Origin: Streptococcus mitis B6
Lineage (GTDB): Bacteria > Bacillota > Bacilli > Lactobacillales > Streptococcaceae
DNA: 64,000 bases
Reading direction: 5' to 3'
Assembly: GCF_000027165.1 (NCBI RefSeq)
Contig: NC_013853.1
Span: 1,364,001-1,428,000 of the forward strand
Numbering within the stretch: position 1 is the stretch's first letter; every line of letters begins with the position of its first letter. Below are positions 3,253 to 15,415 of this stretch, in pieces. Both the position numbers and the translations under genes were made by a program. The notes below the pieces were generated by a model. That model worked only from the letters and a program-made list of their open reading frames with translations, searched no databases and had not been told where the DNA came from.

Positions 3253-4176
3253 TCAGATACTACTTTTATCTTTTTTATCTGAGGATTTGTCTGTTGAGTT
3301 GTCTGTCGATTTATCACTAGATTTGCCTTTGTCGTTAGATTTTGAAACATTACTTCGGACAACAGTATCATAACCTTCTGTATTATCAATTAACTCGGTT
3401 GCTAGAGTACGATAATCCTCTTGAGAGATAAGCCAGTTGCCATCCTTATCTTTGGTTAATTTGATTTCAGTATCAAAATCTCCAGTAGTAAATGGTGTAT
3501 ACGCTAAGTTAGGGTCGACATCGTTATAGATAGTAAAATCATGCCTAAACAGATGCTCAAAAATCCAGTATGAAATCAATGTTTGGTATCGTTTAATATC
3601 AACATTTGATCCCGCAGTATTGTACTTACCTAAGTTGTCAATCCCTCCAATTAGAGTTGTTAAAACGTTTCTTGTTGAAGAAGCCAAACCCTTAGAATGC
3701 AACTTTTTAGATGTAAAAGTTACAGTAGCTGAACTCCCTGATTCGTCTAACTTAACATCTTTAATAGAGTAATAACCAATCTCTTGGAACATTTTTCGTC
3801 TTACTTTTAAGAAGCCAGTAATTGTTTCTTCTGGTGTTTCAATAGGGAAATCAGCATGCCATTGAACAGAATAGGTAGAGGCTGGTGTAAGACCATCATC
3901 TTTTACCTTTTCACTAGTTTGAACCGCAAATACTGCCTCAGTCCATTTTTCATAGGTTTCGCCGTAAATCTTTTTAAACTTAGCAATATCAGTAGTCAAA
4001 ACTGCATCTAATAAAGTTTCAGCATCTTTTGTAACTTTTTCTTTGACTGATTCTTCTTTCTTATCAGTTTGTTCGGTTTTGTCAGAATTCGACCCTGACT
4101 GAGTCGGAAGTGAAGAACAAGCACCTAAGACAACTGCTGAGAGCGCTAAAATACCAAGCAACTTAACTTTTTTCAT
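3253..4176 (-). CDS. Putative lipoprotein of unknown function
   Basis: A 307-residue protein with a type II signal peptide: positive MKKVK, a hydrophobic stretch and lipobox LGAC (Cys20). It should therefore be lipid-anchored outside the membrane. A Lys/Glu/Ser-rich linker (about 21-50) leads into a mixed alpha/beta domain (about 50-265) that I do not recognise. The last 35 residues are a low-complexity Ser/Asp/Lys tail (SSDKSTDNSTDKSSDKK). It is monocistronic, lying between the IS1182 element and tRNA-Ser(GCT). The streptococcal lipoprotein identity is firm; no function can be assigned. Confidence 0.8.
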   Translation of the reverse strand: MKKVKLLGILALSAVVLGACSSLPTQSGSNSDKTEQTDKKEESVKEKVTKDAETLLDAVLTTDIAKFKKIYGETYEKWTEAVFAVQTSEKVKDDGLTPASTYSVQWHADFPIETPEETITGFLKVRRKMFQEIGYYSIKDVKLDESGSSATVTFTSKKLHSKGLASSTRNVLTTLIGGIDNLGKYNTAGSNVDIKRYQTLISYWIFEHLFRHDFTIYNDVDPNLAYTPFTTGDFDTEIKLTKDKDGNWLISQEDYRTLATELIDNTEGYDTVVRSNVSKSNDKGKSSDKSTDNSTDKSSDKKDKSSI

Positions 4177-4342: not shown

Positions 4343-4740
4343 AAAAATAAAAATACTAGAACGATTGGATTTATCAAACCTAACATCACGAATAAACATC
4401 ATTTTTTGTTTATTTAATTTTTAACCGCTTACCCTTGTATTTTAAAGTAAATACTCTATCAACCAAGATAAAGTATCTAAGTCTATATTCAAAAATTTTT
4501 TAAACATCGTACTCAATTATACCCAATGTTCAAATTCAAAAATCATTTCAAGATGTTACATATCCTCTTTTCCTGGGTAATTGTTCTCTTTGAAAATCAA
4601 ACACAATTTTACAATAAACCTACAATATACAATCATTATATCATTCAAGGAAATAAAAATCGGTATATTTTTTAATTTGTTATATCTAATTTTTGAACAT
4701 TAAGTTCATTTTTTTAGTTTTTATAAAGAACTTCAAAATA
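4343..4740. other. AT-rich stretch without a recognisable gene
   Basis: About 400 bases with no open frame that has a start and ribosome binding site, and no clear terminator. It lies between tRNA-Ser(GCT) and the IS3-type element and may be the eroded left edge of the prophage-like island. Confidence 0.5.
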
Positions 4741-4755
4741 AAAAACGTTGATTTA
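4741..4755 (+). repeat. 15-bp direct repeat, left copy
   Basis: AAAAACGTTGATTTA matches exactly the sequence at 11832-11846 beside the integrase and ssrA. The IS3-type element starts on the next base. The pair brackets the prophage-like island and could be attachment-site remnants. Confidence 0.4.
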
Positions 4756-4811
4756 TGTACTGCACCCCAAAAGTTAGACAGAAAAAATCTAACTTTTGGG
4801 ATATTTTTATT

Positions 4812-6160: not shown

Positions 6161-6169
6161 ATTAATTGT

Positions 6170-6304
6170 CTAACTTTTTGGGGTCAGTACAGGAACTTGT
6201 GAATCGTTCAAAGAAATCTTAGAATCTAACTCATCCACTTTCTCAGCAATATATGTCACGGTCCTCAATATCTCGTTGAGGGCTGTTCTTTCTAGTTCGT
6301 TCAT
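6170..6304 (-). pseudogene. Small phage gene truncated by the IS3-type element
   Basis: ATG at 6302-6304 with an AGGAG site starts MNELERTALNEILRTVTYIA. After about 37 native codons the frame runs into the IS right inverted repeat and stops at 6170-6172. The 3' part of the gene is missing. It is the third gene of a leftward cluster and is likely a small coiled-coil phage protein. Function unknown. Confidence 0.6.
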
Positions 6305-6474: not shown

Positions 6475-6618
6475 CTACTTTTTCTTAAGCTCTTTGTCTT
6501 TGAGCTTGTATGCTAAGTACTGCTTATGCCAAAGACGAGCTTCTCTGACTAAGCCTAGTGCCAAGATGACGGTTGCAGTGTCCTTTGTTCCTAGGCTTTT
6601 TATGATGTGTTCCATCAT
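6475..6618 (-). CDS. Small phage protein, first gene of the leftward cluster
   Basis: A 47-residue protein MMEHIIKSLGTKDTATVILA ending KLKDKELKKK. It has a strong AGGAGG site 6-8 nt before the ATG at 6616-6618. It is divergent from the repressor gene, across an operator region, where the cro/early side of a phage switch is usually found. It lacks a recognisable helix-turn-helix, so it is not a clear Cro. A GC-rich hairpin follows its stop (6450-6475). Confidence 0.55.
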   Translation of the reverse strand: MMEHIIKSLGTKDTATVILALGLVREARLWHKQYLAYKLKDKELKKK

Positions 6619-6658
6619 TTGCCTTACCTCCTTTTCCTTAAGCTTGATTTAATTGTAC

Positions 6659-6750
6659 TACGAATTAAATCGTATATTAATACTTTTTTAGAATTTTTCC
6701 GTATTTTTTTCGTATTTTTTATTTACAAATACGAAAATAAGCGTTATTAT
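6659..6750. promoter_or_regulatory. Divergent phage operator/promoter region
   Basis: The region contains two dyads built on TCGTA/TACGA: TACGAATTAAATCGTA at 6659-6674, and a second at about 6708-6736 with arms TTTCGTATT/AATACGAAA. A rightward promoter TTTACA (6722-6727), 17 bp, TATTAT (6745-6750) precedes the repressor gene. A leftward -10 TACAAT overlaps the first dyad. The layout suggests repressor control of both directions. Confidence 0.55.
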
Positions 6751-6777
6751 ATAGTAAAAGACAAAAGGAGAAAAAGA

Positions 6778-7566
6778 ATGGCCAGAGGACGAGGAAAATT
6801 AACTCCTCAAGATAAAGAGGATATGAAGGTCTTTTCCGCAAATCTAAATGCTATTTTGTCGGATAGGAATTGTAAGCAAGTTGAATTGTCCAGAGCGACA
6901 GGTATACCTGCTAGCACTTTAACGGGCTATGTAAAAGGAACTTCTTTGCCTATACCTGGTAATGTACAAAAAATAGCTGATCATTTTGGAGTATTAAAAT
7001 CGACTTTAGATCCGAGGTTTGCAAGTGAAGATTCATCTATTGAAATTACTCCTACCGCTTCCCAAATCCAATCAATCTACGACCAACTAGCACCGCCTAG
7101 ACAAGGCAAAGTCCTAACCTATGCCGAGAGGCAACTAGACGAGCAAAAAAATGAAGATAAAACGAAGATAAACGAAGTATCAGAGAAAATTGTTCAACTC
7201 TATGGTTACGACTACTACGACCACGCTGCTTCTGCTGGTACTGGGCAGTATTTGAATGATATACGAGTGGAACGGATTGAGTTGCCAGTGGATGTTGATG
7301 CCGACTTTGTTATTCCGATTAAAGGTGACTCCATGGAACCTGATTATCATGATGGCGACCTAGTATTTATCCAGACAAGTGTTGATTTGAATGATGGTGT
7401 TATCGGAGTGTTTAACTACAACGGAGAGGCATATATCAAGCAACTAGTCATTGATACAGAACAATCCTACCTACATAGCTTGAATCCTGCATACAAGGAT
7501 ATGCCAATCACACCAGAAACAGACTTCCGAATCATTGGAGAAGTCGTGGATTTATATAGGAATTAA
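6778..7566 (+). CDS. Prophage repressor, XRE helix-turn-helix plus S24 peptidase domain
   Basis: The ATG at 6778 with AAAGGAG six bases upstream gives a 262-residue protein starting MARGRGKLTPQDKEDMKVF. Residues about 15-75 are an XRE helix-turn-helix (QVELSRATGIPASTLTGYVKG). Residues about 160-262 are a LexA/CI-type S24 domain. It has the probable Ala-Gly self-cleavage site in HAASAGTGQYL, catalytic Ser in KGDSMEPDYHDGD, and catalytic Lys in EAYIKQL. It should hold lysogeny and be cleaved on RecA activation. It appears intact although the prophage around it is not. An upstream extension of the frame lacks a ribosome binding site. Confidence 0.9.
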   Translation: MARGRGKLTPQDKEDMKVFSANLNAILSDRNCKQVELSRATGIPASTLTGYVKGTSLPIPGNVQKIADHFGVLKSTLDPRFASEDSSIEITPTASQIQSIYDQLAPPRQGKVLTYAERQLDEQKNEDKTKINEVSEKIVQLYGYDYYDHAASAGTGQYLNDIRVERIELPVDVDADFVIPIKGDSMEPDYHDGDLVFIQTSVDLNDGVIGVFNYNGEAYIKQLVIDTEQSYLHSLNPAYKDMPITPETDFRIIGEVVDLYRN

Positions 7567-7579
7567 ACGAGGTAGACCG

Positions 7580-8662
7580 ATGGAAAATACAATAGAATTA
7601 AAAGAAATTATAGAAAATATAAAAAAAGAAATCCCTGTTTTAGATTCTTCTAGTGATTATTGGCTAGTGCGTGCTAACTCTGGAGAATATTATACGGATT
7701 TTAATCTAAATGGCTATATAGGTATTGGATGGAATGAGATTACCCTTGAAGATATTAGACGAGCAGATAATAACTCCAATATATTAAAAGAAATTTTAAA
7801 AGAAAAACTAACATTTCAAGATGACTTAGAACCATCTGAAAACAAATATGGTATCACTGCAGGCCAACTGCTTCGCTTTGTAAATAACATTAAGAAAAAC
7901 GATATAGTTGTTGTCCCATCTGAAGGATCTGAACGATTTTTAGTTGGTAAAGTTACTGGACCACTTTACGAACTCGATCAATATGAGCTTGAACAATACA
8001 AAAGTGAAGAGTTGACGCATAGTCGATCTGACTTTGCAAAAAGGTGGAAAGTACATTGGTTAGGATGGTTTAATCGTTCCGATGCAGACAGCGCATTGTA
8101 TAAAATGATTTATTCTCATGCAACACTATCAAATATAAATGATTATAAACCGTTCATTAACCGCGCACTTTTCCCTTGCTATATTGAAGACGAAAAACTA
8201 TATATTAGCTACCATGTAACAGAAGAAAAAGATATTCAAGGGGTTTATTTGGGTCAATTTGTTTATCAATATTCTCTATTAACAAGGTTGCTTTTCCCTG
8301 AAACACGAGTAGATTCAAAAATAAATGTACAGTCCGAGGGTATTATAGAACTTATTACGCATACTGTAAACTATGGACTTATAATTTCAATGATACTTGG
8401 TGGAGCAATTGTTCTGACAAGTGGGGGGAAACTAAAGGTTATGGGATTAGAACTTGAAGTCCCAGGATTAATAAATACGTATCAAGACTATCAAAAAAAC
8501 AAACTCGACCGGATTAAGCAAGCAAAAGAACTAGCTGATGAACTCGGTGTACCAATATCTGAATTAGGAATTCGTATTCCGAGAAAACTAACAGCTGCTA
8601 TAGAAAACAAAACAGTTGTACAACAGGCTACTAGTAATCCACCAGGTAAGTTTGAGGAATAA
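7580..8662 (+). CDS. Hypothetical protein with EVE/PUA-like N-terminal domain and a hydrophobic segment
   Basis: ATG at 7580 preceded by GAGGT gives 360 residues. Residues about 25-165 (YWLVRANSGEYYTDF, GYIGIGWNE, GQLLRFVNNIKKNDIVVVP, RWKVHWLG) follow the pattern of the PUA/EVE-like modules found at the N-terminus of modification-sensing restriction proteins; this is pattern recognition, not a search result. Residues about 264-280 (YGLIISMILGGAIVLT) form one hydrophobic segment, followed by a charged tail. It starts 13 bp after the repressor and probably shares its promoter. A lysogenic-conversion or phage-exclusion gene is the best guess; the function is not known. Confidence 0.6.
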   Translation: MENTIELKEIIENIKKEIPVLDSSSDYWLVRANSGEYYTDFNLNGYIGIGWNEITLEDIRRADNNSNILKEILKEKLTFQDDLEPSENKYGITAGQLLRFVNNIKKNDIVVVPSEGSERFLVGKVTGPLYELDQYELEQYKSEELTHSRSDFAKRWKVHWLGWFNRSDADSALYKMIYSHATLSNINDYKPFINRALFPCYIEDEKLYISYHVTEEKDIQGVYLGQFVYQYSLLTRLLFPETRVDSKINVQSEGIIELITHTVNYGLIISMILGGAIVLTSGGKLKVMGLELEVPGLINTYQDYQKNKLDRIKQAKELADELGVPISELGIRIPRKLTAAIENKTVVQQATSNPPGKFEE

Positions 8663-8685
8663 AAAAAGTCTAACATCAGTTAGAC
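8661..8685 (-). terminator. Terminator shared by two convergent genes
   Basis: A perfect 8-bp stem AGTCTAAC/GTTAGACT with a 4-nt loop. On the reverse strand it is followed at once by a T-run, so it terminates the leftward small gene. On the plus strand the T-run is 12 nt away. The leftward stop codon lies inside the stem. Confidence 0.65.
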
Positions 8686-8849
8686 TCGAAAGAAATAATT
8701 TTTTTTAATAAAAATGTGACAAGTGTAGTTATCGCTATTGAAAGATAGCTATTTGTGATGTAAATCGTAGTTATTGAGAAAAAAATCTTGAAAATTAAGA
8801 GAAATATAAATGTCGATACAATAAAATTTTTTAACTCTTTTTTTAACAT
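8679..8849 (-). CDS. Small membrane protein, 56 residues
   Basis: ATG at 8847-8849 with GAGAGGAG upstream encodes MLKKELKNFIVSTFIFLLIF and a second hydrophobic stretch (SYLSIAITTLVTFLL), ending in KKNYFFRV. Two membrane helices are predicted. A TATAAT -10 lies about 30 bp upstream, and a 27-bp palindrome covers the -35 region. It is convergent with the EVE-like gene and divergent from the type III toxin-antitoxin locus. Function unknown; size and basic N-terminus resemble small membrane toxins or holin-like proteins, but that is speculation. Confidence 0.5.
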
Positions 8850-8900
8850 ATTTTTTTCTCCTCTCTCTTTTTAAATAATTATAACATAAACAAGTAAAAA

Positions 8901-8927
8901 CAACTGTTTCCAAAATGGAAATAGTTG
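8901..8927. repeat. 27-bp palindrome, left copy
   Basis: Arms CAACTGTTTCC and GGAAATAGTTG around a 5-nt centre. A near-identical palindrome lies at 9681-9707. This copy overlaps the -35 region of the leftward 56-residue gene and sits 30 bp upstream of the antitoxin promoter, so it is either an operator or the edge of a mobile module. Confidence 0.6.
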
Positions 8928-8957
8928 ACAATAATAAAAATAAATTTAACAAAAAAC

Positions 8958-8986
8958 TTGACAAAAAGTTAAAAAAGCAGTACACT
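8958..8986 (+). promoter_or_regulatory. Promoter of the type III toxin-antitoxin locus
   Basis: Consensus TTGACA (8958-8963), 17-bp spacer, TACACT (8981-8986). It would start transcription near 8993, just before the first antitoxin repeat. Confidence 0.75.
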
Positions 8987-8992
8987 GATAAT

Positions 8993-9070
8993 GTCAAAAG
9001 CCTTGTTCGTCAAGGATACGATATTTACTTATAAAGCCTTGTTCGTCAAGGACAAAACGGTCTGGTGTAC
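8993..9070 (+). ncRNA. Type III antitoxin RNA (CptI/ToxI-like), two tandem repeats
   Basis: A 20-nt sequence is exactly repeated at 8997-9016 and 9033-9052, a period of 36 nt. Each copy contains a hairpin CCTTG-TTCGT-CAAGG. The array lies between a strong promoter and a terminator hairpin, upstream of a MazF-fold-like toxin gene: the defining layout of type III systems, where repeat RNA units are cut out by the toxin and inhibit it. Two short repeats fit the CptIN-type arrangement better than the longer ToxI arrays. Assignment is from architecture. Confidence 0.7.
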
Positions 9071-9095
9071 TTCTAATAGGTACACCTGATTTTAT
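9064..9095 (+). terminator. Leaky terminator between antitoxin RNA and toxin gene
   Basis: A 7-bp stem GGTGTAC/GTACACC (9064-9070, 9080-9086) followed by a T-rich stretch, 25 bp before the toxin start. In type III systems such a terminator sets the excess of antitoxin RNA over toxin mRNA. Confidence 0.65.
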
Positions 9096-9110
9096 TATCT
9101 GGAGCATTAT

Positions 9111-9544
9111 ATGAAATTTCAACAAGGCGAAGTTTATCTAATCAACTTCCCACAAAAAAGTGGGAATGAATTTTACGGAAAACACTACGCTATCATCTTA
9201 ACACCTCCTGACAAAGCTGATGGGACACTCCTAGTAGCACCTTTAACTGGTAAAAATCAGGAAAGAAATATCGTGGTGGTATCACGATTGAAAATAGTAA
9301 ATATCAAAACACTCCTTCCAAGCCAAAAGCTTATGCTTATATCCGAAAAATCCAAGAAATAGACAAACGGAAAATCGTCTATAAAACAAAGAAAAAGACT
9401 GATAGCGATGGACAAGTAATGATAGATTCAGAGGGAAAAGAGTTATATGATAAAGTTTATAGACCAGCTTACAAGCTAGATACAAACGACCATAAAAAAC
9501 TACTAGACAAGATAAAAGAAGTTCTTGGACTAGATTTATATTAA
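9111..9544 (+). pseudogene. Type III toxin (CptN/ToxN-like endoribonuclease), frameshifted
   Basis: The first frame starts MKFQQGEVYLINFPQKSGNE and contains GKHYAIILTPPDKADGTLLVAPLTGKNQ, the MazF/PemK-like fold of type III toxins, then leaves frame near 9262-9268. The -1 frame (relative) continues KYRGGITIENSKYQNTPSKP, KAYAYIRKIQEIDKRKIVYK and ends with KEVLGLDLY at 9544. Restoring one base in the A-rich run gives one 144-residue protein, the normal size for this family. As it stands a truncated 83-residue product is expected, so the toxin is probably inactive. A sequencing error or phase variation at the A-run cannot be excluded. Confidence 0.72.
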
Positions 9545-9552
9545 ATAAAAAA

Positions 9553-9581
9553 TTGACTTTTTTTAAAATTAGGGTTAGAAT
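9553..9581 (+). promoter_or_regulatory. Promoter of a candidate small RNA
   Basis: TTGACT (9553-9558), 17-bp spacer, TAGAAT (9576-9581), directly after the toxin gene. Confidence 0.6.
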
Positions 9582-9587
9582 TAAATC

Positions 9588-9676
9588 ATAAAGTCGCTTG
9601 ACGACAAAATAGATGATACTGTCCCAAGAGGACATCTCTAGCCCTACTCTTATGAGGTGGGCTTTTAATTTTTTAT
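9588..9676 (+). ncRNA. Candidate small RNA, about 90 nt, unassigned
   Basis: It lies between a promoter with 17-bp spacing and an intrinsic terminator. Three hairpins can be drawn: GTCG/CGAC (9593-9605), TGTCC/GGACA (9620-9634, extendable by AGATG/CATCT), and the terminator AGCCC-CTC/GAG-GGGCT (9640-9663) with a T-rich tail. No open frame with a ribosome binding site is present. I do not recognise the family; it sits in the lysogeny module beside the toxin-antitoxin locus. Confidence 0.5.
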
Positions 9677-9680
9677 TTAA

Positions 9681-9707
9681 CAACTATTCCCATTTTGGAA
9701 ATAGTTG
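9681..9707. repeat. 27-bp palindrome, right copy
   Basis: Arms CAACTATTCC and GGAAATAGTTG. It shares the whole right arm and most of the left arm with the palindrome at 8901-8927. The two copies bracket the toxin-antitoxin and small-RNA units exactly. It also lies upstream of the membrane protein gene at 9773. Confidence 0.6.
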
Positions 9708-9772
9708 CGTAAAACGGAAATAAAAAAATGTGCAATAACTGAACCACATTAAAAGCTGGGAGAGGTTTCATT

Positions 9773-10369
9773 ATGAATGAAGAACGCAAAGTTTTAGGTA
9801 TTTTGGCTATTATTTTTGGAGCAATTGCTCTATTTGGGTCTTGGATGCCTATTATTAACAATCTATCTTTTGTTATTGCTATCTTAGCGCTTATATTAGG
9901 CTTGATAGGTCTAGCTATCAACAGAAAAAGACCAAAAATGTTGGCTATCATTGGTACAGTTTTAGCAGTTGTGTCAATGGTTATTGTTATCGCTACGCAA
10001 TTGATGTATGCCCGTGCTTTGAATAACGCTGCTAAAAACGTTGAAGAAACTGTCAGCTCAGTAAGTTCTTCTATCGAATCATCACAAAAAGAAGAGGATG
10101 CTAAATTTAACTGGACAAAAGAACAGTTTGACGCTCTTCAGATGGGTGACATCACGAATTATGGAGCTGGTGGAACTAACTACGATGATATTGTTAGTGT
10201 TCATGGAGAACCAAATAGTATAAACACTACTACTGTCAATGATCACGAAAGCAGAACAGTTTCATATTCTTCAGCAGGGACAAAAATCCGAAGCGTTACT
10301 TTGACATTTAGCAAACAAGAAAATGGTGCTTATTTATTGACTGCTAAAGTCGGCATCGGATTGGAATAA
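9773..10369 (+). CDS. Prophage-associated membrane protein with DUF3862-like C-terminus
   Basis: 198 residues, starting MNEERKVLGILAIIFGAIAL after a GGGAGAGG site. Three hydrophobic segments (about 7-25, 29-48, 58-77) form the N-terminal membrane domain. A Ser/Glu-rich linker leads to a C-terminal domain (about 115-198) containing FDALQMGDI and VSVHGEPNS. That pattern resembles DUF3862/SmpA-like modules of streptococcal small surface proteins. Such proteins are often found between repressor and integrase in streptococcal prophages. Function unknown. Confidence 0.65.
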   Translation: MNEERKVLGILAIIFGAIALFGSWMPIINNLSFVIAILALILGLIGLAINRKRPKMLAIIGTVLAVVSMVIVIATQLMYARALNNAAKNVEETVSSVSSSIESSQKEEDAKFNWTKEQFDALQMGDITNYGAGGTNYDDIVSVHGEPNSINTTTVNDHESRTVSYSSAGTKIRSVTLTFSKQENGAYLLTAKVGIGLE

Positions 10370-10390
10370 ATTTATTTTCATGATAGAATT

Positions 10391-10526
10391 AAGTTACTTA
10401 GAGGCAAGCCCTCATAATTTTAGACTTTGCACCTTAGCGTGCCAGGGAAAGTAACTTAACGGTTGCTTCCCTTTTTAAAACCAAAAAAAGTCACTTGCTG
10501 AAAGTTTGGCGACAGTAGCAAGTGAC
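10391..10526 (+). ncRNA. Candidate structured RNA upstream of the integrase
   Basis: A perfect 9-bp helix AAGTTACTT (10391-10399)/AAGTAACTT (10449-10457) encloses two small hairpins (GAGG/CCTC and GCAC/GTGC), forming a three-way junction. It is followed by AGGGAA/TTCCCT and a T-run (10445-10476) that could act as a terminator competing with the helix. A second perfect 10-bp stem GTCACTTGCT/AGCAAGTGAC lies at 10490-10526. There is no gene in 10370-10661. The switch-like layout is inferred; the family is not recognised. Confidence 0.4.
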
Positions 10527-10661
10527 TAGACGGAGATTTTCAAAGACAATTTCTACTAGCAGGCAAGCAATTAGAAAAGGTTTTGAATATCTATATAAAA
10601 AACGACCATTAAAAAGGTAGTTTTCTTGTACCCATTTTATCAAGAAATGAGGTGAAAATCA

Positions 10662-11744
10662 ATGGAAATTAGATCTTATAAAAAGAAAAACGGAGAAACA
10701 GCTTATATGTTTCGTGCGTATATCGGTAAAGTGAACGGATATAGTCAATATGCTACCCGCCATGGTTTTGCTACAAAAGCTAAAGCAAGAGCAGCACTGC
10801 TTCAACTTCAGGATGATATTGAGAGTGGCGAGCAAACTAAGAAAGAAATAACGGTTGAGGAAATTTCTAAAAAATGGCTTAATGATTATTCTGAGACAGT
10901 ACAAGAGAGCACTTATATCAAGACCTCTAGGAATTTTAAGAATCACATCTATCCAGCTTTCGGCAATAGGAAAATAGCTAGTATCACTCCTCTTCAAATG
11001 CAAGAGCAGGCCAATGAATGGTCTAGAAAATTAGTCTATGGTCGTAAGTTAAAGGGTTTGATGAATAATGTTTTCAAATATGCAATCCGACATGGATACA
11101 TAGAAATCAATCCAGTTGATAGCGTGATTACCTCAACAAGAAAGAAATCTGATATCAAAAGCGACTTTTACAACAAAAACGAACTTCAAAAGTTTTTGAA
11201 ACTTGTTGCTAAAACAAAGGATCTAGATAAGATAACTCTATTTCGCCTTCTAGCCTTCACAGGGGCTCGGAAAGGTGAGATTTTAGCTCTCGAATGGAGT
11301 GACTGAAATGATAATACTCTGGACATAAACAAGGCCATTACAAGAGGTTTTGCAGGCGAAGAGATAGGAAACACAAAAACGGTCAGCAGCAATCGACTAA
11401 TCAGTCTAGACAAAAAGACAAAAAGTATTTTGAAAAAATGGAGAAAGCAAAATACAGATACCAAATACATTTTTGAGAATGAGTTTAAAAAGCCAATTCC
11501 AAGTACATTGTCCAGAAAGTGGCTTATCAAAATTGTGGAAGGTAGCGACCTGCGTCCGATTAAAATCCACGGCTTCAGACATACACATGCCAGCCTTTGT
11601 TTTGATGCTGGTATGACTTTGAAGCAAGTCCAACATCGCTTAGGACATTCTGACTTGAAGACGACCATGAACGTTTATACACACATAACTAAGCAAGCAA
11701 AAGACGACATCGGAGAACGATTTGCGAAGTATATTAATTTTTAA
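10662..11744 (+). pseudogene. Tyrosine-recombinase integrase with an in-frame stop
   Basis: A phage/ICE integrase of about 360 codons starting MEIRSYKKKNGETAYMFRAY. The N-terminal part is an AP2-like arm-binding domain (about 1-50), followed by the SAM-like core-binding domain. The catalytic domain has Arg in TGARKGEILAL, then HGFRHTHAS, LGHSDLKTT and the nucleophile Tyr in NVYTHI. A TGA at 11304-11306 after LEWSD splits the gene within the catalytic domain, separating the first catalytic Arg from the His-Arg-His-Tyr residues. The frame is otherwise intact on both sides, so a single nonsense mutation disabled it. Its position beside ssrA suggests insertion at the tmRNA 3' end. Confidence 0.88.
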
Positions 11745-11749
11745 ACACG

Positions 11750-11780
11750 ACAGACCTTCTTCAAAAAGAGGGTCTGTTTT
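11750..11780 (+). terminator. Integrase terminator
   Basis: Stem ACAGACC/GGTCTGT (11750-11756, 11771-11777) followed by TTT, a few bases after the integrase stop. Confidence 0.65.
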
Positions 11781-11800
11781 AGGGTCTGCCTTTTTCGCAA

Positions 11801-11890
11801 AAGAATACCAAGGAATACCAAACTCAAAAATAAAAACGTTGATTTAACAACGTTTTACCAAGGAATGCAAAAGAATGCAAAGGAATAATG
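11801..11890 (+). repeat. Probable attachment region with arm-type repeats
   Basis: Short direct repeats of the type AAGAATACC/AGGAATACC (11801-11820) and AGGAATGCA/AAGAATGCA (11861-11886) flank a dyad AAAACGTTG/CAACGTTTT (11833-11855). The right edge is the 3' end of ssrA. The arrangement resembles integrase arm sites around an att core; it is inferred from sequence only. Confidence 0.45.
11832..11846 (+). repeat. 15-bp direct repeat, right copy
   Basis: An exact match to 4741-4755, at the other edge of the island. It is the left arm of a small dyad. Confidence 0.4.
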
Positions 11891-12233
11891 GAGCCGGTGG
11901 GAGTCGAACCCACGTCCAAACACCTGCCAACATATTTGTCTACAACCATAGGTTATGTATTAATTTAACAGTCCCTCGACACATAACTCAAGCCTAGAAA
12001 CTGCGAGTCTATCAATCTCTTATCAAGCCGCTAGACAAGACTTGATCGTATCTCGCTAATAATAAGACCTGTCATTGAACACGAGCAATCCAAATCGGGT
12101 CACGCCTGCTGGTTTTTAGGCAGCTAGAGCGTAAGAAGTGTTATTTTTTGCAGTTATATTTAACTGAGCGTTTACGTCGCCACACGAGTCGCAAAATATG
12201 CCTCATAATGCCTGTCGAATCCGTAACGACCCC
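11889..12233 (-). ncRNA. ssrA: tmRNA (ssrA)
   Basis: The reverse strand begins GGGGTCGTTACGGATTCGAC and ends with the tRNA-like T-arm GGTTCGACTCCC and an encoded CCA at 11889. The tag reading frame encodes AKNNTSYALAA followed by TAA (complement of about 12115-12150), the streptococcal tag. Length is 345 nt. It rescues stalled ribosomes with SmpB. The 3' end borders the integrase remnant, a common phage attachment site. Confidence 0.97.
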
Positions 12234-15174: not shown

Positions 15175-15415
15175 ATACTCTTCGAAAATCAAATTCAAAC
15201 CACGTCAGCGTCGCCTTACCGTATATATGTAACTGACTTCGTCAGTTCTATCCACAACCTCAAAACAGTGTTTTGAGCTGACTTCGTCAGTTCTATCCAC
15301 AACCTCAAAGCAGTGCTTTGAGCTGACTTCGTCAGTTCTATCTACAACCTCAAAGCAGTGCTTTGAGCAACCTGCGGCTAGCTTCCTAGTTTGCTCTTTG
15401 ATTTTCATTGAGTAT
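15175..15415 (+). repeat. BOX element (boxA, three boxB, boxC)
   Basis: It starts ATACTCTTCGAAAATC and ends GATTTTCATTGAGTAT, as BOX elements do. BoxA contains CACGTCAGCGTCGCCTTACC. Three tandem boxB units each contain CTGACTTCGTCAGTTCTATC, and boxC carries the TTGCTCTTTGATTTTCATTG end. Length 241 bp. It lies between the CapA-like gene and def, upstream of both. The 67-codon open frame inside it is a by-product of the repeats. Confidence 0.93.

Follow-up and report, generated by a model that had tools for sequence, protein, structure and literature searches.

A MazF/PemK-type toxin gene behind a conserved hairpin RNA in streptococcal prophages: a probable type III-like toxin-antitoxin system

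Introduction

Can a toxin of the MazF family, whose members are textbook toxins of type II toxin-antitoxin systems, be held in check by an RNA instead of a protein? The question is raised by a locus at positions 8958-9544 of a 64,000-nucleotide stretch of the Streptococcus mitis B6 genome (contig NC_013853.1, positions 1,364,001 to 1,428,000; "the window" denotes this whole stretch, to which all coordinates refer), where a gene of the MazF/PemK family is preceded by a promoter-like site, two short repeats and a terminator-like hairpin. We consider it likely that the locus represents a type III-like (protein-RNA) toxin-antitoxin system composed of a MazF/PemK toxin and a short RNA with either one or two hairpins of 5 bp. 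As the toxin is frameshifted in this genome, only the RNA part can still work here, if anything.

Results

All elements of the locus are on the plus strand. The promoter-like site of the putative RNA (8958-8986), TTGACA-17-TACACT, agrees with the consensus at 10 of 12 positions and is seen again in relatives; its score is weak taken alone, because a scan of 1.2 kb yields 11 promoter-like sites against a mean of 5.0 in shuffled sequences. It is followed by two identical 20-nt repeats with a spacing of 36 nt, which form hairpin repeats 1 (8997-9016) and 2 (9033-9052) of the putative RNA antitoxin. At up to three mismatches the 20-mer matches only these two places in the whole window, and 100 shuffles gave a mean of 0.02 matches, none of them containing two. 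Between the RNA and the toxin stands a terminator-like hairpin (9064-9086) of 9 pairs and a T-rich tail, with similar hairpins present in relatives. The toxin gene (9111-9544) is split over two frames, the first of which spans 9111-9362 while the remainder ends in another frame at 9544. These elements had been read from the sequence alone in the original prediction, which also gave the restored toxin 144 residues, and the reading is borne out throughout: the intact frames of viral contigs encode 144-145 residues, and the order of RNA repeats, terminator and RNase-type toxin is that of type III systems. No protein antitoxin gene is apparent, as there is no plus-strand open reading frame of more than 39 amino acids between 8875 and the toxin start.

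The family of the toxin was examined with its two pieces searched separately and the frameshift not mended in any query. Piece 1 matches PF02452 (PemK/MazF) at 4.6e-7, the same model is matched above its cut-off by 8 of 8 toxin relatives scanned, and all matches of the two pieces and the scanned relatives are to PF02452 or to weak MazF models, in agreement with the MazF/PemK-like protein foreseen. The three type III toxin models, each confirmed to exist as a model, gave no match: PF13958 (ToxN_toxin) found nothing at E up to 10 in the two pieces of the window's toxin and nothing at E up to 1 in eight relatives, and NF047359 (CptIN) and NF047358 (TenpIN) were unmatched up to E 10 by the window's pieces and the relatives. 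The label CptIN/ToxIN-like, which the original prediction had attached to the locus, thus fails in this narrow sense. As judged by these profile models, the locus has the type III layout and matches none of the three type III toxin models tested. Nor did PADLOC match any of four toxin relatives or plasmids match either of two toxin queries.

Structure prediction for the toxin of an intact relative shows a MazF fold in the model, for which the closest solved structure, among the matches listed, is S. aureus MazF. The predicted model thereby displays the Kid/MazF-like fold that is a criterion of type III toxins; ToxN and CptN chains were not among the best 50 matches of either structural search, which is no proof of their absence. 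Thr-46 is invariant and aligned with the MazF threonine, and the position of the MazF arginine is occupied by His-25 in 15 of 16 toxins.

Toxin piece 2 finds matches in 11 of the 284 genus genomes searched, including that of the window, with identities of 93-96% in seven other genomes and of 46-69% in three more; the nearest named loci belong to S. mitis SK608 and S. pneumoniae SMRU824. A single open frame is found in nine of the 11, the exceptions being the window, with its frameshift, and genome G028, with one internal stop, so the toxin is broken here, as the original prediction had it, and intact in related streptococci. Viral contigs present the same picture: the frame is intact in 30 of the 31 loci of a first alignment (locus L094 is broken). 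Protein P0019 is a toxin with an early, different C-terminus. The whole-length toxin occurs in 20 of 50,697 annotated phage records, all streptococcal and two of them satellites, under the annotations PemK-like, MazF-like or hypothetical. Wider samples returned one of 398 genomes of the phylum at E 1e-6, namely the window's own, and 14 of 395 genomes of the order at E 1e-3, several of these hits being weak and to other PemK-like genes; in the two such cases with a scanned upstream region, no hairpin is present. Toxins from other families of the order are about 42% (L051) and 58% (L049) identical to the best query, and Fusobacterium proteins belong, at the protein level, to the same toxin sequence family.

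The hairpin travels with this toxin. The exact 20-mer is present in all 11 toxin-bearing genomes of the genus. In a broader set, 149 fetched loci with the toxin N-terminus, many of them re-fetches of one contig, reduce to 26 distinct 150-nt upstream sequences from near and distant relatives, 23 of which contain the hairpin CCUU(G/A)-loop-(C/U)AAGG; two repeats are present in 20, one in three and none in three. The hairpin-bearing set includes L051, L049 and the phage contigs L210-L214. The original prediction had named toxin genes lacking an upstream array in related genomes as the case that would speak against it, and the array is there in these 23 regions. The consensus of the hairpin is AAAGCCUU[G/A]-UUNGU-[C/U]AAGGA, and its 5-bp stem is formed in 100 of 100 cells (20 distinct repeats): the inner pair is G-C in eight repeats and A-U in 12, never mixed, and the other four pairs are invariant. 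A mitis-type (L013) and a suis-type (L010) locus share an identical 64-nt block containing both repeats, the window differing from it inside the spacer; in mitis-suis pairs of the toxin, changes are found at 78-84% of the synonymous sites, which are thus saturated, and at about 16% of the nonsynonymous ones, and dN/dS is 0.10-0.19 within clades. These comparisons of sequence indicate that both the RNA and the toxin are under constraint. Folding contributes little by itself: the 117-nt region that includes the terminator has a z-score of -2.39. Rfam, searched both at its gathering score and up to E 10, returned no antitoxin RNA family.

Several results weigh against the proposed protein-RNA system. 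The upstream regions without the hairpin belong to two distant PemK-like genes (L052, L062) and also to a closer relative, L215/L217, whose toxin is 66% identical to that of L214 and yet has no hairpin in 260 nt upstream. Three distinct upstream regions carry a single repeat, one of which (the L189 group) precedes an intact toxin. Within the stem one pair alone varies, a variation that a single old change could account for, and pairs changed on both sides are no more numerous than in shuffles, 479 of 500 of which reach the count. In structure prediction single repeats fold unremarkably (z -1.34 and -0.57), and in the optimal fold of the two together one repeat is paired to the other. The pseudoknot that typifies the type III antitoxins solved so far gains no clear support, the longest loop-to-tail match being 3.75 against 3.47 in shuffles for the 20 repeats (3.91 against 3.25 for first repeats).

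The hairpin also occurs without a toxin. The exact 20-mer is found in 16 of the 284 genus genomes, 11 with the toxin and five without it (G035, G104, G199, G227, G245). At up to two mismatches the pattern, which then included chance matches, was found in 26 genomes, 10 of them lacking the exact match; a reversed control pattern matched in three. Among the annotated phages 30 records have the cassette, and 10 of these fall outside the 20 toxin records: MissF, IPP26, IPP50, 109751, Spn1, phiARI0131-1 (two records), IPP38, IPP40 and IPP61. In the four opened (MissF, IPP26, Spn1, phiARI0131-1), it carries no annotation and has the repressor side on one flank and the integrase on the other. Thirteen toxin-less loci, one of them cut by a contig end, comprise seven distinct units, all of which have kept the promoter, the unchanged 20-nt hairpin and the terminator hairpin. 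No remnant of the toxin was found within 1.5 kb of the toxin-less cassettes, where DNA matches measure 15-23 nt at E 0.05 or worse and the only protein-level match, in IPP26 and L119, is to another PemK-like gene of greater length. In phage IPP26 this longer gene (L224, 2105-2869) is directly upstream of the toxin-less cassette. A looser count, of 15-mer segments among the fetched loci, gave 54 of 150 without toxin: nine mitis-type toxin-less cassettes, two of another type (L021, L036), one contig end (L108) and 42 that, judged by eye, are apparently unrelated. In a viral contig, L176, a single hairpin of the A-U type (3838-3854) has a further hairpin behind it and no recognised toxin.

These seven cassettes are candidate RNA antidotes, but they, and the leftover RNA of the window, could instead be dead remnants, a statement to which we give slightly less than an even chance and which is a separate question from how the repeats themselves are to be read. 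The toxin has been lost repeatedly, as the frameshift of the window, the stop in G028, the broken L094 and the altered C-terminus of P0019 attest; the integrase of the window is broken; and in L028 and L032 the hairpin is mutated and the terminator gone, so that decay does occur among toxin-less cassettes. Against this stand the intactness of the seven units with no trace of the toxin nearby, and the four inspected phage records, each annotated as a complete genome and with its integrase uninterrupted. The sameness of the cassettes is itself weak evidence of selection, because they are closely related. The suggestion that a toxin-free RNA protects against relatives, made originally for this locus alone, is unproven but strengthened by how common toxin-less cassettes are. 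The element of the window, with its broken toxin, intact RNA and stop-bearing integrase, may be on the path to an antidote or may simply be decaying.

The other alternatives concern what the repeats are. They might be operators in the DNA, palindromes of 15 bp at which either the MazF-like protein or a repressor of the phage would regulate the promoter, with no RNA antitoxin involved; the CCTTG-N5-CAAGG dyad does sit just downstream of the promoter. Because a DNA palindrome would show the same paired changes of the inner pair as an RNA stem, the symmetry of the repeat was tested. Its centre is conserved but asymmetric, the two central steps being complementary in none of the 20 repeats, and its conserved 5' A's have no 3' counterpart; moreover, promoter, hairpin and terminator persist in toxin-less units, where no gene of the unit follows them. 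We regard the operator reading as very unlikely. A cis-acting leader, an attenuator that merely tunes toxin expression while the real antitoxin is encoded elsewhere, would suit the placement of the RNA and terminator in the 5' region of the toxin transcript, but it is likewise very unlikely given the free-standing cassettes without toxin and the varying neighbour genes of the carriers: as the upstream genes differ, no constant partner gene is seen. Least probable of all is a type II-like peptide antitoxin of KALFVKD units. In the window a 32-codon ATG frame, in which the inner-pair G-to-A and C-to-T changes are silent, spans both repeats, and no other frame does so, but relatives do not preserve it. 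An in-frame ATG, GTG or TTG is missing for 5 of the 13 distinct first repeats and for all 10 of the 10 toxin-less copies, and the two repeats stand in different frames in 6 of 11 cases. Silent positions of the 64-nt block, moreover, are invariant between mitis and suis types, where those of the toxin are saturated.

The toxin and its putative RNA sit in what the original prediction rightly called a prophage remnant. Upstream on the plus strand lie a CI-like repressor with an S24 peptidase domain (6607-7566) and a phrog_10226 protein (7535-8662) that resembles the candidate defence protein PDC-S02 (PADLOC E 4.4e-17); downstream are a phrog_11491 protein (9773-10369, plus strand) and a tyrosine integrase interrupted by a single in-frame stop (10662-11744, plus strand), beside which a tmRNA gene (11886-12233, minus strand) is the probable insertion site. 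When 6607-11900 was compared with the 50,697 phage records, 80 matched, none covering 80% of the query, and the best piece (7588-9675) was 98.6% identical to the mitis satellite phages Javan325 and Javan339, from which we conclude that the remnant is a mosaic. The PDC-S02-like gene accompanies the module in both satellites. In five phages (Javan339, V22, Javan336, Javan578, Javan325) the toxin stands before the integrase, separated from it by no more than one gene, and one to three genes upstream of the toxin there is a repressor or DNA-binding protein. The module is best read as an accessory, carried close to the integrase, that belongs to the lysogeny region of prophages and satellites in streptococci.

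A 27-nt palindrome, CAACTGTTTCCAAAATGGAAATAGTTG, is found to the left of the module (8901-8927) and in a variant form to its right (9681-9707), and at up to three mismatches nowhere else in the genome, a single contig of 2,146,611 bases. It flanks the module on both sides in 8 of the 28 loci examined (two of the eight being the same locus), is absent from the suis-type loci, from L012, from L051 and from L210-L214, and occurs in 6 of 98 related genomes, twice adjoining integrases; it is possibly a cassette border. Direct repeats of 23 nt, 91% identical, lie at 4733-4755 and 11824-11846, the first next to an insertion sequence whose inverted arms are at 4756-4780 and 6167-6191 and the second near the tmRNA gene, and are possible attachment sites of the remnant. 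Elsewhere in the window, a minus-strand open reading frame at 15205-15408 with three copies of the 15-residue unit SKHCFEVVDRTDEVS is a tandem DNA repeat between genes, and a plus-strand tRNA-Ser (1277-1366) was called by ARAGORN and not by the Rfam scan at the gathering score.

Discussion

Combining these observations, we propose the following model for the intact module. The promoter would make the RNA, with most transcripts stopping at the terminator, and read-through of the terminator would yield the toxin mRNA and so set the level of toxin. The RNA would bind the toxin and block its activity, by analogy with ToxIN and CptIN perhaps in the toxin's RNA-binding groove. Should RNA synthesis stop, upon phage infection or loss of the element, the stable toxin would be freed to cut cellular RNA, which could make the module one of defence or of stability. 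A toxin-less unit could in turn act as an antidote, neutralising the toxin of another resident element, comparable to the expanded pseudo-ToxI of phage phiTE; in S. mitis B6, either such neutralisation or no role at all would be left.

Should RNA prove to control a branch of MazF, the line dividing type II from type III systems would blur, and PemK/MazF genes that appear partnerless may have a partner that annotation misses; in mitis-type loci an open frame can even run through the RNA into the toxin (L014; protein P0022). The toxin-less cassettes of pneumococcal and mitis phages make competition through RNA antidotes directly testable, a natural comparison is offered by phages that do or do not have the toxin near their integrase, and the hairpin is short enough to be dissected base by base.

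Type III systems comprise three families defined by toxin sequence, according to sections of a 2016 review (PMC5086642), which relate that these were found through ToxN-like structure, terminator and repeats and which mention one prophage locus. Among the titles and abstract openings listed by searches of open-access papers, none describes a MazF/PemK toxin with an RNA antitoxin, subscription papers and preprints lying outside those searches. Set apart by the profile-model scans of its toxin, the locus probably belongs to a new family of type III-like systems. The fuller proposal, which we find evenly balanced, is that of a fourth type III family, in which a minimal hairpin RNA, and no protein, restrains MazF/PemK, which is spread through phages of Streptococcus, other Lactobacillales and further hosts, whose RNA also serves as a free-standing antidote, and through whose one conserved 20-nt hairpin related phages and satellites compete.

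The nearest relatives in layout differ from the locus in definable ways. CptIN of Eubacterium rectale likewise has tandem RNA repeats before an RNase toxin of Kid/MazF-like fold, and its bound RNA is a single 45-nt unit (PMC4627078, in part); here the toxin falls outside the CptIN model, the period is 36 nt, the hairpin is conserved and a pseudoknot is unsupported. ToxIN and AbiQ share the order of repeat array, terminator and toxin, and the ToxI repeats of Pectobacterium also measure 36 nt, but, as portions of the two sources describe them, these systems usually have more repeats and an antitoxin that is a pseudoknot (PMC5086642, PMC8860590), and our toxin belongs to PF02452, not PF13958. Type II MazF/PemK toxins agree with it in sequence family, predicted fold and the threonine aligned with Thr-46; they differ in that a hairpin RNA stands here in place of a protein antitoxin gene and His-25 in place of the MazF arginine. 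Phage phiTE carries, as pseudo-ToxI, an antitoxin-like RNA without a toxin, as the toxin-less phages do; the part of the source concerned describes phiTE as lytic and its wild-type pseudo-ToxI as failing to protect until expanded (PMC3475682), whereas the phages described here are temperate and hold a promoter-hairpin-terminator unit near the integrase, at the place where others hold the full module.
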